Assembly: GCA_015055975.1 (NCBI GenBank)
Contig: SVHF01000001.1
Coordinates: forward strand, 70,752-134,751
Direction of reading: 5' to 3'
From: Clostridiales bacterium
Lineage (GTDB): Bacteria > Bacillota > Clostridia > Christensenellales > UBA3700
DNA length: 64,000 bases
The notes under the pieces are model-generated. The model saw only the letters and a list, made by a program, of their open reading frames with translations. It was not told the DNA's origin and did not search any database. Shown piece by piece: positions 19,314-30,034 of the stretch; the first letter of the stretch is position 1; each line of letters opens with the position of its first letter. The position numbers were made by a program, and so were the translations under genes.

Positions 19314-19345
19314 ACAGCTCCCAAGGCGGGAGCTGTATTTGATTT
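19314..19345. terminator. Terminator between convergent thiN and thiT
   Basis: ACAGCTCCC (19314-19322) pairs with GGGAGCTGT (19328-19336) around AAGGC. Moderate T runs on both sides suggest it works in either direction. Confidence 0.8.
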
Positions 19346-20577
19346 TAGTTGTTAGTTGTATCAGTAGCTTGTTGCTTAGGTGCTTCAGTAGTTTTTTCTA
19401 CTTCTTCACCATATAGTTCTGTAAGTGAAACTGTTGCAGCTTTTGCTTTTGTATATTTAGCAAGGGCTCTTGCAAAATTCTTTGAAGATAATAATAAAAC
19501 TCCAGCAACTAACGCGATAGCAATATCTACAAATACAAATGAGTTGTAAGCTGTAGAGTATAAGAATAAGTTATCAACTCCAGCATCTTTTGCATATGCA
19601 CCAAATGCAAATACACCAGATAATACGTGAGCGATAAATCTACCTAAAGATGCAATGATTGCGCTTAGAGCGAATTTAACTTGTGGTAATTTTTCTAATA
19701 TATTAACATCCTTTAGACATCCAGCAAGGCTGATGAAAGCAAATGCGATTGGGTAGTCTAATAGGAATTGTGCTGGGTGAATAATAAATGGATCTTGAAT
19801 AGCTTGTAATAATCCATAGAATACTCCAACGATAAGACCTTTTTTAGAACCATAAACATAAGCAAATAGCATGATTGGAACTAATGATGCAAATGTAACT
19901 GTACCACCTTGAGGCAATTTAAATAGTGCGATATAAGATAGAGCAAATGATAGGGCAATTGAAATTCCTGCAAAAGCAATTGATCTTGTATCAAACTTTA
20001 AATCACCTTTTCTATCTGCAAAATAAGCAATTGCGATAAGACCTATAACTAAAGCTGCAGCGCTTACATATAGATTTACATTATTTAATTGACCATATTC
20101 GCCTGTGTAATATCCATCGCCTTCGATATTTCTAGAATAGAAAATAGCTGTTGTAACAATAGTTGTAATAATAGAAGCTACGATTAATGCGCCACTAGCA
20201 ATTCCTGCAATCTTTAGGGATTTAGATTTTTTGCTAGATAAGAACATCAATAGAGATGCGCTTAACAATATAATAACTAATGTTATTAAACCTGGGATAA
20301 ATACATAATATGTAATATCCTTGCTTACCCAATTATCTTCAAGATATTGAGCATTGTAGTGTTTAGCAATGTCTAAAGATAACATCAATATTCCTACAAC
20401 TACTGCATATAGTAGAATTCCGATTGATGCTGGCTTTAAAGCTTTGATAAACAATTCTTTTTTTGTAAAGTACAACACGATGCCGGCAATAACTAATAAA
20501 CCAGCAAGAGCTATTGTTGTCCATTTTACGATTGGCTCTGCAGTATCTACTGCATAAGCAGATAATAAATAAAACAT
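19345..20577 (-). CDS. thiT: ThiT-like thiamine ECF S-component with an extra N-terminal membrane domain
   Basis: Residues ~198-370 form the six-helix ThiT fold, with SYIALFKLPQGGTVTFASLVPIMLFAYVYG and GVFYGLLQAIQDPFIIHPAQ as typical thiamine-binding segments. ThiT alone is about 180-190 residues. This protein has 410, with about five extra helices in the first 190 residues and a Lys/Thr-rich cytoplasmic tail. A TPP riboswitch directly upstream confirms the thiamine link. ThiT needs a shared ECF energising module, which is not in the window. The role of the N-terminal extension is unknown. The start codon follows a seven-base U run of the riboswitch terminator. Confidence 0.85.
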   Translation of the reverse strand: MFYLLSAYAVDTAEPIVKWTTIALAGLLVIAGIVLYFTKKELFIKALKPASIGILLYAVVVGILMLSLDIAKHYNAQYLEDNWVSKDITYYVFIPGLITLVIILLSASLLMFLSSKKSKSLKIAGIASGALIVASIITTIVTTAIFYSRNIEGDGYYTGEYGQLNNVNLYVSAAALVIGLIAIAYFADRKGDLKFDTRSIAFAGISIALSFALSYIALFKLPQGGTVTFASLVPIMLFAYVYGSKKGLIVGVFYGLLQAIQDPFIIHPAQFLLDYPIAFAFISLAGCLKDVNILEKLPQVKFALSAIIASLGRFIAHVLSGVFAFGAYAKDAGVDNLFLYSTAYNSFVFVDIAIALVAGVLLLSSKNFARALAKYTKAKAATVSLTELYGEEVEKTTEAPKQQATDTTNN

Positions 20578-20603: not shown

Positions 20604-20617
20604 CTGTGTGTTAAGTA

Positions 20618-20700
20618 TTGATAACTTCCTTTCGCAAGTATTACCTTGTTACAAGTTCAAAGGGTATATCTCAGCCTTTATGGCACCCCTAGCCATCAAA
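20618..20700 (-). promoter_or_regulatory. TPP (THI-box) riboswitch
   Basis: Read on the reverse strand, the leader has the TPP aptamer hallmarks in order: AGGGGTGCC, GGCTGAGATA, ACCTTTGAACTTG and GCGAAAGGAAG. The helix P1 arms TTGAT and ATCAA close it. It binds thiamine pyrophosphate and turns off thiT when the cofactor is abundant. Confidence 0.95.
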
Positions 20701-21622: not shown

Positions 21623-23110
21623 ATGGACGACAATAAGATTGATGTTTTTCAAGATGAAGACACAAAACAAAAAGATATTTTTGTAGATTATTCTAATGAA
21701 CCTAAGAACCCAAAAGAAGTATCAACAAAAACGGCAGTGATTGCTATTGTTGCTACGTTCATAGTTTTGTTAATTATAGGCGCTGCATTTACTGCAGGAT
21801 TCTTTACTGCAAAATCAACAGGAATCGAAGGTGATATGCCACTTTTGGAAAAGGCTTATGAATATGTAAAATACTATTATTATCAAGATATTTCATTTAG
21901 CGAATTTCAAGAAACAGCATCTCTATATATGGTAAGCGCGTTAGATAAATTCTCAGGAGCTACATATGCACAAGTGCCAGCCGGAGAATATACATTTGGA
22001 TATGCAGAAAGTACAACGGATTATAATGAACATATTATAGCTAAAGTTGTTCAATCATCTCCTATGCAAGAGGCTATCGCAAAAACTAAGTGCTCAAGTC
22101 CAACATATACGCAAGGATCTTTATATAAATATGTTGAATATGCTGTTCAAGAAAATGTAGAAGAAAGCAAAATTAAAGTTGGAATAGGGGATAAATTAGT
22201 AGCTATAAGTTTTAATGGACTACAACCAATTTTTGTGGAAGGCTTATCAACTGATTCTATTAAATCTTTATTCTCTAGTGCAGATACAGATACATTTACG
22301 TTCTATTTTGCCCCATCTGACGGTGAAGGACATTATCCATATGATTATGTATATAAATATATTGTCACAAGAAGATTTGTAACAACAAAACATGCGTTTT
22401 TATATACTCCAGAAGAAATCGGGGATACAACAGGAACTACTGCCATGATAGTATTTGATTCATTCTCAGGATCTGCAATTAAAGACTTCCATGATTGTGC
22501 TCAAGCCTTCGTTGATGCGGGATACACAAAACTTATTTTAGATTTAAGAGCTAATGGCGGTGGAGACGAAGCTATATTGCAATATTTAGGTGGTTGCTTA
22601 ATTAAAGGCGCAGAAAAAGATGATAAGGATATAATAAAATATGTTAAGAATTCAGGAAAAGGTAAATTCGTAACTGAATATGTTAAATCGACAAAGGCTG
22701 GTACATTCGAAAGCGATGAAGAGGTAACGACATATAATGCAGTAAATCTTCCAGCTTTAGTTGAAGGATTTAATATGACTATTCTTTGCGATGGACATAC
22801 AGCATCTTCATCTGAAGCATTAATTGGAGCTTTGATGTATTACAATAATGCAGAAATTATAGGACGCACTACATATGGCAAGGGCGTAGGACAAGTTGTT
22901 ATTCGTTTTACAGAAAAATATGACTTGCTAATAACAAATGGTAAATACTATATTCCAACAGATTCAAATGGTGACGGAATAATAGAATGGGATACATGTA
23001 TTCATGGTGTTGGATTTATTCCAAAAGAAGAAAATACAATAGATAAAGTCGTTAGACCAATATCTACAGATAAAGCTATTAAAAGAGCGTTGACACTTTT
23101 AAATAGCTAA
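21623..23110 (+). CDS. Membrane-anchored S41-family serine protease
   Basis: The 495-residue protein has a cytoplasmic N-terminus, one membrane helix at ~35-58, and an extracytoplasmic part containing a degenerate PDZ-like region (KVGIGDKLVAISFNG). The C-terminal-processing peptidase domain follows. The catalytic Ser lies in GHTASSSEAL and the Lys in TTYGKGVGQ, both intact. LILDLRANGGGDE is the conserved strand before the active site. Such proteases trim envelope proteins or activate signalling proteins. It begins one base after the ABC-ATPase stop, so the two are co-transcribed. Confidence 0.88.
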   Translation: MDDNKIDVFQDEDTKQKDIFVDYSNEPKNPKEVSTKTAVIAIVATFIVLLIIGAAFTAGFFTAKSTGIEGDMPLLEKAYEYVKYYYYQDISFSEFQETASLYMVSALDKFSGATYAQVPAGEYTFGYAESTTDYNEHIIAKVVQSSPMQEAIAKTKCSSPTYTQGSLYKYVEYAVQENVEESKIKVGIGDKLVAISFNGLQPIFVEGLSTDSIKSLFSSADTDTFTFYFAPSDGEGHYPYDYVYKYIVTRRFVTTKHAFLYTPEEIGDTTGTTAMIVFDSFSGSAIKDFHDCAQAFVDAGYTKLILDLRANGGGDEAILQYLGGCLIKGAEKDDKDIIKYVKNSGKGKFVTEYVKSTKAGTFESDEEVTTYNAVNLPALVEGFNMTILCDGHTASSSEALIGALMYYNNAEIIGRTTYGKGVGQVVIRFTEKYDLLITNGKYYIPTDSNGDGIIEWDTCIHGVGFIPKEENTIDKVVRPISTDKAIKRALTLLNS

Positions 23111-23119
23111 GACTATAAT
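23090..23119 (+). promoter_or_regulatory. Consensus promoter inside the end of the protease gene
   Basis: TTGACA (23090-23095) and TATAAT (23114-23119), 18 bases apart, are both perfect hexamers. They would start transcription near 23126, just ahead of the structured leader. Confidence 0.8.
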
Positions 23120-23125
23120 ACTTAT

Positions 23126-23246
23126 GACCTATTTAGGGATTTATTCCTAAATCGGCCTTGAAAATATGACTAAATCGATGAGGATTCGGAGAGTAAGTAA
23201 GATCAATATTCTGACTTATAACTCCGCTTTTGGCGGAGTTTTTTAA
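23126..23246 (+). promoter_or_regulatory. Unidentified structured leader with antiterminator and terminator
   Basis: This leader shows the layout of a transcriptional riboswitch or attenuator. ATTTAGG (23131-23137) can pair with CCTAAAT at 23146 or, less fully, with a second CTAAATCG at 23170. CGGAG (23187-23191) plus GTAAGT can pair with ACTTAT plus CTCCG (23222-23226), forming an antiterminator. That pairing would break the terminator AACTCCGC/GCGGAGTT (23220-23240) and its T run. I found no match to riboswitch classes I know, including TPP, THF, glycine, purine, SAM and T-box. Confidence 0.65.
23220..23244 (+). terminator. Leader terminator upstream of the TM1266-type gene
   Basis: AACTCCGC and GCGGAGTT form an eight-pair stem around TTTTG, followed by a run of Ts. 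It lies before the gene it would control, as in an attenuator. Confidence 0.88.
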
Positions 23247-23262
23247 TCCTAAGGAAGGCAAT

Positions 23263-23514
23263 ATGAGAAGAATTGGCGTAATTGGAATTGTTCTTAAAAA
23301 CAAAGAACATGTAAGCGAGGTAAACAAGCTTTTATCTGAATATTCAGATATCATCTTCGGTAGAATGGGAGTTCCAGATAAAGAATCAGGAATTAATACC
23401 ATTTCAATTATGGTTAAGGGAACTAATGAAGAAGTATCAGCTTTAACTGGAAGATTAGGAAGGCTTGATGATGTTTATGTAAAAAGTGCTTTAACAAGCA
23501 TGGAGGTTTTATAA
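23263..23514 (+). CDS. TM1266-family (iron-only hydrogenase system) putative regulator
   Basis: The 83-residue protein reads MRRIGVIGIVLKNKEHVSEVN and ends in LGRLDDVYVKSALTSMEV. This matches the small ferredoxin-like/ACT-like proteins called TM1266, found next to [FeFe]-hydrogenase maturation genes. Their ligand is unknown. I choose ATG 23263, with AAGGAAGG before it; the ORF-track start at 23230 lies inside the terminator. No hydrogenase gene is nearby, and the next three genes form an ABC importer. Confidence 0.8.
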   Translation: MRRIGVIGIVLKNKEHVSEVNKLLSEYSDIIFGRMGVPDKESGINTISIMVKGTNEEVSALTGRLGRLDDVYVKSALTSMEVL

Positions 23515-24513
23515 ATGAAAAAGGTTTTAATATCTTTATTAGTAGTTTTAGTAATACTAACAACAGTATTTGCATTTGCTTGCAATACAGAGAAAAAGCC
23601 AGAAGGTGAATACACAATCGTTTCTCCAGATGGCGCACCAGCTTTTGCGCTAGCATCATTTTTTGAACAACCAAATTCTGATGCAACATTTAAAGTAATA
23701 CCATCAATTGTTTCATCAACTTTAATTAAGGCAGAAGCAATTAAAGCAGACTTTGCTATCGTTCCTGCTAATATGGCAGCAATTTTATACAATCAGGGCG
23801 CTGAATATAAGATGGTAGCATCAGTTACAAACGGAAATATGTTCTTTGTATCAAATCATGAGAACACAACGTTTACGCTAAATGACTTAAAGGGTCATGT
23901 CCTATATTCAATCGGACAAGGTTCTGTTCCAGCATTCATTATGTTAAACATTCTTACAAATGCAGGAATTGAATGCGAAGTATCTGAAACTCCAGTTGAA
24001 GGCAAGGTTGCAATTCAATATGTAGCAGATGGCCCAGCATTAATTACAAAAGTTAAAACAGCAACAGGAACAGTATATGGAAATCTAGCTGAGCCTGCAG
24101 TTACAACATTTATGTCAAAGGGAGGATATAGAGTTGCTGATGTGCAAGAATTATGGAAAGAATCAACAGGATCTTCTATAAAGGGATTTGCTCAAGCTGT
24201 TTTAATTGCAAAGAAATCTATTTGTGATGAAAAGCCAGAAGTAGTAGATGCTGTTATAAATTCAATTAAGGGAAGCGAAACATTTATTGTTGAACACGCA
24301 GAAGAAGTAAGACAAGATATAAAGTCATATTATGAAGAAACATCTTTAAAGAATCCAATTACATCAGAAGTTGTACAAAACTGCAACGTTCATATATACA
24401 AAGCATCAGAAAACATTGACTACATTTTAGCAACTCTAAATGCAGCATATGCAATAAATTCACAATCAGTAGGAGGTAGCGTTCCAGCAAAGGATAGCGG
24501 ATTCTATTATTAA
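23515..24513 (+). CDS. ABC importer substrate-binding lipoprotein (NMT1/ThiY-like)
   Basis: The 332-residue protein has a lipoprotein signal peptide ending in FAFAC, so it should be anchored outside the membrane. The mature part begins YTIVSPDGAPAFALASFF and has the two-lobe NMT1/THI5-type periplasmic-binding fold, including LKGHVLYSIGQGSVPAFI. Family members bind thiamine precursors, taurine, nitrate, riboflavin or other small molecules. With thiN and thiT a few kilobases away, a thiamine-precursor ligand is possible but unproven. It forms an operon with the permease and ATPase that follow. Confidence 0.85.
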   Translation: MKKVLISLLVVLVILTTVFAFACNTEKKPEGEYTIVSPDGAPAFALASFFEQPNSDATFKVIPSIVSSTLIKAEAIKADFAIVPANMAAILYNQGAEYKMVASVTNGNMFFVSNHENTTFTLNDLKGHVLYSIGQGSVPAFIMLNILTNAGIECEVSETPVEGKVAIQYVADGPALITKVKTATGTVYGNLAEPAVTTFMSKGGYRVADVQELWKESTGSSIKGFAQAVLIAKKSICDEKPEVVDAVINSIKGSETFIVEHAEEVRQDIKSYYEETSLKNPITSEVVQNCNVHIYKASENIDYILATLNAAYAINSQSVGGSVPAKDSGFYY

Positions 24514-25274
24514 TGAACAATAAGTCGATAAAGTATTTGGATATATTATTGCCATTTATAGCTCTAGGGATAGTAGTAGCCCTATGGGCTATTGTGGCTG
24601 CAGCTGTTGGCTCGCAGATAGTATTTCCATCACTTTTATCGACTCTAAAAGCATTATTTAATTTATTTGGCGAAGGGTCATTTTATGTATCTATTGGCAA
24701 TTCGCTACTTAGAGTTTTGATATCGTTTGTAATTTCATTTTTATTTGCTCTTATATTTGCAATCCTTTCTTCGCTTTTAAAAAATGTAGGGAAGGTTGTA
24801 TCAATACTTACATCAATAATGAGAACGATACCAACAATGTCAATAATTCTATTGGCGCTTATTTGGCTATCTACTTTAAATGCGCCAATGTTAGTTGCTA
24901 TTTTAGTAATCTTCCCATTGCAATATGCAGGACTTTTAAATGCAATTGTAAATGTTGATCCAAGATTGATTGAAATGGCAAAAATCTACAATGTTCCAAT
25001 TAAAAAGCAAATTCTAAATCTATATTTACCAGAAGCAGCACCTAGTGTATTTAGCACAATAAAATCAACAATATCTTTAAATGTGAAGTTAATTATAGCT
25101 GCTGAAGTTATGGCACAAACAAGAGCTTCTATGGGACTTCAAATGCAGCAAGCATCTATGTATCTTGAAATGGATGTATTATTTGCTTGGACTATTATTG
25201 CTGTTGTATTAGGACTTATTTTAGAAGGAATTGTAACTTTGGTCGAAAAACTAACAATAGGAGGCAAGAGATGA
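24513..25274 (+). CDS. ABC importer permease
   Basis: This 253-residue BPD_transp_1 permease has about six helices. The EAA loop reads LPEAAPSVFSTIKSTISLNV, the contact site for the ATPase. It overlaps the binding-protein stop by one base and the ATPase start by four bases (ATGA). It resembles the SsuC/TauC/ThiX group, matching the NMT1-type binding protein upstream. Confidence 0.88.
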   Translation: MNNKSIKYLDILLPFIALGIVVALWAIVAAAVGSQIVFPSLLSTLKALFNLFGEGSFYVSIGNSLLRVLISFVISFLFALIFAILSSLLKNVGKVVSILTSIMRTIPTMSIILLALIWLSTLNAPMLVAILVIFPLQYAGLLNAIVNVDPRLIEMAKIYNVPIKKQILNLYLPEAAPSVFSTIKSTISLNVKLIIAAEVMAQTRASMGLQMQQASMYLEMDVLFAWTIIAVVLGLILEGIVTLVEKLTIGGKR

Positions 25275-25942
25275 AGATTCAGAATCTAAAAGTATCTTTT
25301 AAAGACGTAAAAGTCTATGAAGATTTTTCAATAGATTTAGATAATAAAAAGATCACTTGTATCCTAGGGCCTTCGGGATGCGGTAAGACAACACTTTTGA
25401 ATGTATTAGCAAACAATGTTAAATTTGAAGGAAATGTATCCGATTTGGGAAAATTCGCATATGTTTTCCAAAATCCACGCTTAATTGAGTCAATAAGTGT
25501 TGAGGAGAATTTAAAATTCGTGCTAAATCCTCAAGATTATTCAAAGATTGATAAAGTGCTTGAAGATTTGGAAATTTTGGATTTAAAGAGTAAATATCCA
25601 GCTCAATTATCTGGTGGGCAAGCAAGTAGAGTAGCTATAGCTAGAGCTATTGTTTATAATCCTCAAATAATTCTTATGGATGAGCCATTTAAAGACTTAG
25701 ATATAATGCTTACAAAGAAACTTTTAGAATTATTTAGAGATTTAATTATCAAAAACGATTTAGGTGCTGTATATGTAACACATAATGTCGACGAGGCATT
25801 ATCTATTGCAGATAGAGTAATCGTTTTATCAAATTCTCCAGCAAATATTTTGTTGGATCTTCAAATTGATTCAGATCATAAAGATTTATCTTCAAAAGAG
25901 TTAAACGACGCAAGACAAAAAATATATAGTGCGCTATCTTGA
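25271..25942 (+). CDS. ABC importer ATPase
   Basis: The 223-residue nucleotide-binding subunit starts at ATG 25271 (MKIQNLKVSF), where a GGAGGCAAGAG ribosome site lies inside the permease gene. The ORF-track start at 25187 is a frame extension. Walker A GPSGCGKTT, the signature LSGGQASR and Walker B IILMDEP are all intact, as is the H-loop histidine in VTHNVDEAL. It energises the import system encoded just upstream. Confidence 0.93.
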   Translation: MKIQNLKVSFKDVKVYEDFSIDLDNKKITCILGPSGCGKTTLLNVLANNVKFEGNVSDLGKFAYVFQNPRLIESISVEENLKFVLNPQDYSKIDKVLEDLEILDLKSKYPAQLSGGQASRVAIARAIVYNPQIILMDEPFKDLDIMLTKKLLELFRDLIIKNDLGAVYVTHNVDEALSIADRVIVLSNSPANILLDLQIDSDHKDLSSKELNDARQKIYSALS

Positions 25943-29818: not shown

Positions 29819-30034
29819 GAACACTAGAGGAAGTTTGCGGAAAACAATCGCAAGATTGGCCTACGAGGTAATACTTTCTGGCACGTGAAAACGCTAATGA
29901 CCGCAAATGGATAGGACTCTGGAGATATCTATCGATAAGGTGGAACCTGAAGGTGTAGACGTGGCATAACAGCACGAAATCTCTCAAGGAAAAAGACAGA
30001 GGTGTTCATGGCGGAGCAATCCGCCATTTTTTTT
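29819..30034 (+). ncRNA. Unidentified structured non-coding RNA, about 215 nt
   Basis: The region has a promoter, a compact GC-richer body and a strong terminator, but no ORF or Shine-Dalgarno. GAACAC (29819-29824) pairs with GTGTTC (30002-30007) to close the molecule. TTTGCGG (29834-29840) pairs with CCGCAAA (29901-29907), enclosing the hairpin CAATC-GCAA-GATTG with a GNRA loop. GGATAG pairs with CTATC, and ACCT with AGGT. The multibranched layout differs from the long rod of 6S RNA. I do not see RNase P, SRP, tmRNA or known riboswitch cores. A TGGAACC resembles part of a T-box, but no gene follows on this strand. Confidence 0.65.
30008..30034 (+). terminator. Terminator of the ncRNA
   Basis: ATGGCGGA and TCCGCCAT pair around GCAA, followed by eight Ts. 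The T run covers the stop codon of the convergent gene. Confidence 0.92.

Follow-up and report, generated by a model that had tools for sequence, protein, structure and literature searches.

Several described RNA systems resemble the leader analysed here. Like the transcription-terminating OFF riboswitches (TPP, SAM-I and PreQ1-I), it has a conserved domain and an antiterminator with a common strand, ligand binding would tip it towards termination, the genes downstream serve import or biosynthesis, and a version acting at the ribosome-binding site is found elsewhere. With the HMP-PP (thiS) riboswitch (PMC6478431) it has in common a small aptamer-like element in close overlap with a terminator, in a context of cofactor supply. 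Tandems of the Moco/Wco RNA motif have been found before hydrogenase genes (PMC9481103), and both the metal-cofactor context and the tandem arrangements recur here. Ribosomal-protein leader hairpins show the same autoregulatory position before a small-protein gene and the same tandem-GA loops. The literature searched contained no match to the hairpin described below (the 224-motif set of 2017 was compared only indirectly, via Rfam), no relevant paper on TM1266 and no description of a regulator of H-cluster biosynthesis, and hydrogenase is unmentioned in the structured-RNA discovery papers PMC8632094, PMC6429828, PMC7266159, PMC11109978 and PMC2864571.

Architecture of the leader and its operon

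The locus lies in a stretch of 64,000 nucleotides of DNA from a Clostridiales bacterium, the whole of which is called the window. Its features are the following:

23090-23119 (+), sigma-70-type promoter TTGACA-18-TATAAT, 12/12 consensus match
23128-23155 (+), hairpin P1 (MFE fold), variable yet paired in relatives
23169-23198 (+), conserved hairpin P2, aptamer-like, putative anti-antiterminator (covariation; match to model R2 of 44.4 bits)
23187-23198 (+), antiterminator 5' strand CGGAG(A)GTAAGT, made up of the same nucleotides as the P2 3' strand
23214-23226 (+), antiterminator 3' strand ACTTAT(AA)CTCCG, overlapping the terminator 5' arm
23220-23246 (+), intrinsic terminator AACTCCGC-TTTTG-GCGGAGTT (stem-loop 23220-23240), then a T run
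23263-23514 (+), TM1266-family gene (TIGR03959, PF21699), putative iron-only hydrogenase system regulator (TIGR03959 E = 2e-29)
23515-24513 (+), NMT1/THI5-like substrate-binding lipoprotein (SBP)
24513-25274 (+), ABC importer permease
25265-25942 (+), ABC importer ATPase

A preliminary description of this locus had proposed a perfect promoter, a structured region with an 11-pair antiterminator and an overlapping terminator, and a downstream TM1266 gene with an ABC importer, and our analysis recovered each of these elements. The -35 (TTGACA, 23090-23095) and -10 (TATAAT, 23114-23119) boxes are separated by an 18-nt spacer, the 12/12 promoter is unique within 19-27 kb of the window and transcription is expected to start near 23126. 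The leader is structured (folding z = -2.76) and all 11 antiterminator pairs, including one G-U, were found between 23187-23191 plus 23193-23198 and 23214-23219 plus 23222-23226. Because antiterminator and terminator both use 23222-23226 they are mutually exclusive, although the GTAAGT-ACTTAT half of the antiterminator is compatible with the terminator in the MFE fold. The terminator ends 22 nt before the ATG of the TM1266-family gene, and the operon order was confirmed. The conserved AUG of AUCGAUGA might have opened a short leader peptide, but several relatives lack it and this reading was discarded.

An S41 peptidase gene (21623-23110) ends just upstream of the leader, and in family f31 (two loci) an apparent S41-type frame ends directly before a leaderless TM1266, which suggests that this adjacency is an old synteny. 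The window also carries a glycine riboswitch at 29909-30009 (+), with 43 bits.

A conserved, covarying hairpin

The aligned leaders consist of a variable P1 and a strongly conserved core, P2, the switching element, which the preliminary description had not defined. In the window P2 reads (A)CU-AAA-UC-GA-UGA-ggat-UCG-GA-GA-GUA-AG(U), with two purine-rich internal loops, and its consensus in the aligned leaders is 5'-nCY-NRA-UC-RA-UGA-loop-UCG-GM-GA-GYA-RGn-3'. Among 66 distinct leaders, 78.0% of the P2 cells were paired, compared with 69.6% after shuffling (reached in 0/500) and at most 55.6% in slid alignments, and covariation was 0.226 versus 0.117 (0/500). The compensatory changes include U-A to A-U (family f3) and to C-G (one leader) at columns 14/36, U-G to A-U, C-G and U-A at columns 18/32, and U-A to C-G at columns 10/40. 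Conservation of pairing in homologous loci, whose absence the preliminary description had named as refuting it, holds far beyond chance, and both the P2 structure and its role in cis-regulation are well supported.

P1 behaves differently from P2. It was seen only in the window's family, is absent in families f3 and f24 and gives way to unrelated stems in genera other than the window's. Where further families of the order lack P1, transcription is expected to start close to P2. P1 may be a decayed first copy of the motif. The repeat of CTAAATCG that had been noticed in the leader does exist. Nevertheless, the idea that its two copies vie for one upstream partner did not survive, as copy 1 is the 3' side of P1 and is not conserved outside the genus; copy 2 is the 5' strand of P2, and its pairing with GGAGAGTAAG is what competes with the antiterminator. 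A pairing of the P1 loop with the core was likewise rejected because it is not preserved outside the genus.

Distribution of the hairpin and the genes behind it

R2, a covariance model of the f1/f3/f24 sub-type (the P2 type), gave matches for this sub-type that were confined to the order, and all the convincing ones lay upstream of TM1266, mostly in the arrangement TM1266-SBP-permease-ATPase. Matches outside the order were inside genes or without a plausible operon and were judged to be chance. In other families a related hairpin, CCU-GA(A)-NNN(N)-AA-AGn...nCU-GA-N'N'N'-(N)AA-AGG, was read by eye 5' of TM1266. A structural descriptor detected the hairpin in 26 of the 67 TM1266 leaders of the order (mean of 0.6 and maximum of 3/67 in shuffled leaders, 0 on the reverse strand) and, for other orders of the class, in 8 of 30 leaders (0.1 when shuffled). 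The shared architecture comprises a CY/RG closure, a purine internal loop, 2-4 variable pairs, an RA/GA internal loop and an upper stem. A 22-sequence alignment (A5) showed covariation of 0.737 versus 0.205 shuffled and 96% pairing, values that are inflated because its rows were picked by eye for pairing.

The general model built from A5, R3, recovered copies outside its training set in six further leaders and second copies in three others. R3 gives no score to P2 of the window; the link between the sub-types rests on architecture, position, gene and intermediates. The R2 copies form a divergent sub-type whose middle helix has only 2 bp, leader L115 scores 25.4 bits with R2 and 17.7 bits with R3, L150 is matched by both models (neither leader was used to train either), and L024 is intermediate in sequence. 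With some reserve, we consider the two sub-types to be one class. An R3 match at 23208-23260 of the window is unconserved in L002 and L003 and was judged to be chance. Tandem copies occur in five leaders of family f3 and also in other families (L155, L181, L186, L197, L152, L028/L158 and L021), including before TM1266-HydE. In four of the f3 leaders the apical loops of tandem copies are complementary (GUCCC/GGGAC, GCCUC/GAGGC, GUCGC/GCGAC and CCCU/AGGG); kissing between them is only suggestive, with single p values of 0.035-0.15 and some cross-pairings equally good.

TM1266 is single-copy in 41 of 46 genomes of the window's family. What follows TM1266 at the various loci is HydE, HydG, HydF, an ABC importer of NMT1 type, an ECF S component or a FecCD permease. 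Across the class Clostridia, the two covariance models and the descriptor placed hairpins before TM1266-HydE, TM1266-HydG, HydF and HydG and at the HydE-HydG junction. When R3 was run on 41 genomes of the class, copies without TM1266 directly behind them were found as well: directly upstream of hydF (one locus), upstream of hydG (two loci) and between hydE and hydG (L229), with identities assigned by NCBIfam (HydF 533 bits, HydG 480-919 bits); the low-scoring remainder of these matches lay inside unrelated genes. At the hydE-hydG junctions (L028, L115, L130, L151, L158, L170, L180/L229 and L186) and at hydF, the start codon is 7-12 nt past the hairpin, a spacing that brings the hairpin's 3' strand onto the Shine-Dalgarno sequence. 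Taken together, these associations tie the class strongly to H-cluster maturation genes.

An unassigned ECF-type S component gene follows TM1266 at eight loci (with a Pfam match in some), and at one further locus a FecCD-type permease takes its place. These are possible alternative importers of the same compound.

This distribution bears on whether the hairpin is a protein site instead of a metabolite aptamer, most simply one through which TM1266 autoregulates its own operon. Almost all copies have TM1266 as the nearest gene behind them, whatever comes next (HydE, HydG, HydF, SBP, ECF S component or FecCD), proteins commonly bind at tandem-GA internal loops, and TM1266 is a small ferredoxin-like/ACT-like domain of solved structure (2NZC). 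On the other hand, the copies before hydG and hydF and in hydE-hydG junctions have no TM1266 directly behind them, many TM1266 genes have no such leader, and one genome (G333) has a copy before hydG while TM1266 was not found at 97% completeness, a single case with an R3 E value of 0.06. We regard such a protein site as rather unlikely.

A model for switching

P2 and the antiterminator draw on one strand, CGGAGAGUAAG, which is the 3' strand of P2. Owing to this common strand P2 would serve as an anti-antiterminator, and its formation would mean termination. In relatives the register of the pairing shifts (CGGAG:CUCCG, AGAGUA:UACUCU, AAGACG:CGUCUU) and the complementarity is kept. For duplexes between the P2 3' strand and the terminator 5' arm of the same locus, the energy averaged -11.07 kcal/mol, compared with -9.22 kcal/mol (sd 0.31) for shuffled arms and -10.01 kcal/mol (sd 0.25) for arms swapped between loci; the P2 5' strand gave -4.13 kcal/mol. 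As in riboswitches, a covarying structured domain in a 5' leader is thus combined with an expression platform exclusive with that domain, as judged from strand identity, complementarity and ribosome-binding-site overlap. At the level of sequence, the structure and covariation of P2, the common strand and the gene associations are directly documented.

In the proposed mechanism, CGGAGAGTAAGT would pair with ACTTATAACTCCG to form the antiterminator when no effector is bound, allowing read-through into the TM1266-ABC operon. Binding of the effector would stabilise P2 and sequester its 3' strand, the terminator would form and transcription would stop. At other loci the hairpin would cover the ribosome-binding site of hydG or hydF, providing a translational outlet, and this translational version supports the OFF direction of the switch. 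The effector, most likely a small molecule and less likely a protein, would signal the supply of the [FeFe]-hydrogenase H-cluster. In the window's lineage the RNA would govern the importer in place of HydE/HydG. In this scheme we infer the ligand-dependence, the OFF direction, the effector's link to the H-cluster and the importer's cargo. ViennaRNA favours the antiterminator in the nascent RNA (-25.6 kcal/mol, versus -14.5 kcal/mol with P2 forced, a gap of about 11), which implies either that P2 needs an effector or that non-canonical stacking is missed by the energy model; the program scores the non-canonical pairs of the P2 internal loops poorly.

It could be argued that the leader is only a constitutive attenuator, a terminator with fortuitous alternative pairings and no sensing, given that terminators and alternative pairings are commonplace and that MFE alone predicts the terminator. 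Such a leader would explain neither the covariation and the conserved internal-loop bases nor the complementarity to the terminator that is kept while its register shifts, nor the reuse of the hairpin at ribosome-binding sites, and we consider this reading very improbable.

Hydrogenase maturation and the importer

Among 40 relatives, HydG was absent from 23 of the 23 genomes with TM1266-ABC (E <= 0.001) and above the cut-off in 6 of the 17 without the importer (Fisher p = 0.003, kinship ignored), the HydG-bearing ones including three f1 genomes of genus g6. HydE is apparently absent from the 23 importer genomes too, none of which has the secondary HydE matches seen alongside HydG in other genomes. 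All 23 encode the [FeFe]-hydrogenase domain (PF02906), and HydA of the window's genome has all H-cluster motifs intact (TSCSPAW, MPCVAKKFE and EIMSCPGGCVNGGG). Furthermore, in one genome (G332) only a few bases separate the RNA-TM1266-SBP operon from the end of a HydA gene of group A6 upstream of it. These data are suggestive, but no proof, of an importer that provides something needed for the H-cluster where HydE/HydG are missing; in the window's lineage it may replace HydEFG (HydE and HydG being the maturases scored). Missing HydG must have other answers besides the importer, since about ten genomes of the order encode HydA but lack both.

Import of an H-cluster precursor is speculative. The predicted SBP model (pLDDT 94) resembles many NMT1-type binding proteins, and its nearest neighbours in the fold search were too varied to name a ligand. 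The boldest version, in which the operon imports a ready-made H-cluster building block so that hydrogenase matures despite the loss of HydE and HydG, and the RNA would be the first known sensor of H-cluster supply, seems to us unlikely.

The cargo could instead be an ordinary nutrient, with P2 an aptamer for a metabolite or ion that correlates with hydrogen metabolism (iron, tyrosine, glycine or a redox cofactor). Three unrelated importer types (NMT1-like ABC, ECF S component and FecCD) behind TM1266 would be expected for a nutrient, and the proteins nearest to the SBP in fold are binders of taurine analogues, PQQ, thiamine and sulfonates. Against this, genome-wide R2 and R3 searches gave no convincing copies before genes of other pathways, the convincing ones all being hyd- or TM1266-linked, and the importer genomes have HydA but no HydG. 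An ordinary-metabolite aptamer is a tentative possibility, one that we take seriously while judging it short of probable.

The ligands suggested in the preliminary description (thiamine, HMP, flavins or metals) found no support; the neighbouring genes point to [FeFe]-hydrogenase cofactor assembly. No TPP riboswitch was detected upstream of TM1266-ABC, where a ThiXYZ-type thiamine/HMP importer would have one; the TPP riboswitch of the window, at 20610-20700 (-) with 64 bits, precedes a ThiT-like ECF substrate component gene (19345-20577, -). That riboswitch and gene are divergent from the neighbouring ABC ATPase.

Discussion

The Rfam 15 search of the window leader returned nothing at gathering score (the best match, RsmY with E = 0.15, being chance), in agreement with the early impression that the leader belongs to no recognisable riboswitch class. 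In 59 related loci, gathering and permissive thresholds gave chance matches only, with none at the hairpin reaching threshold. The explanation that we consider probable is a class of OFF-switch cis-regulatory leaders, undescribed in Rfam and in the literature searched, whose effector reports H-cluster supply and which here controls an importer. A widespread, uncatalogued leader tied to hydE, hydF, hydG and TM1266 would constitute a new class of riboswitch-like RNAs centred on hydrogenase and, if true, open a way to study the sensing of H-cluster biosynthesis by cells. In addition, the co-occurrence of HydA and TM1266-ABC without HydG, and apparently without HydE, poses a concrete and testable question about [FeFe]-hydrogenase maturation.

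Compared with the known systems, the leader differs from ribosomal-protein leaders in that genes besides TM1266 also have copies in front of them, and one copy belongs to a genome in which no TM1266 was detected; the L10-leader gave weak matches in two loci, below threshold. The Moco motif is included in Rfam. It was undetected at the present leaders in the Rfam search, and the Moco/Wco RNA has an unrelated architecture. In contrast to the HMP-PP (thiS) riboswitch, which serves other genes and has no Rfam match here, the aptamer-like hairpin lies before the terminator and competes through the antiterminator. Lastly, in contrast to the OFF riboswitches, the present RNA matches no Rfam model, and it is a single hairpin of ~30 nt with 2x2 and 2-3x3 internal loops whose gene set is that of H-cluster maturation.
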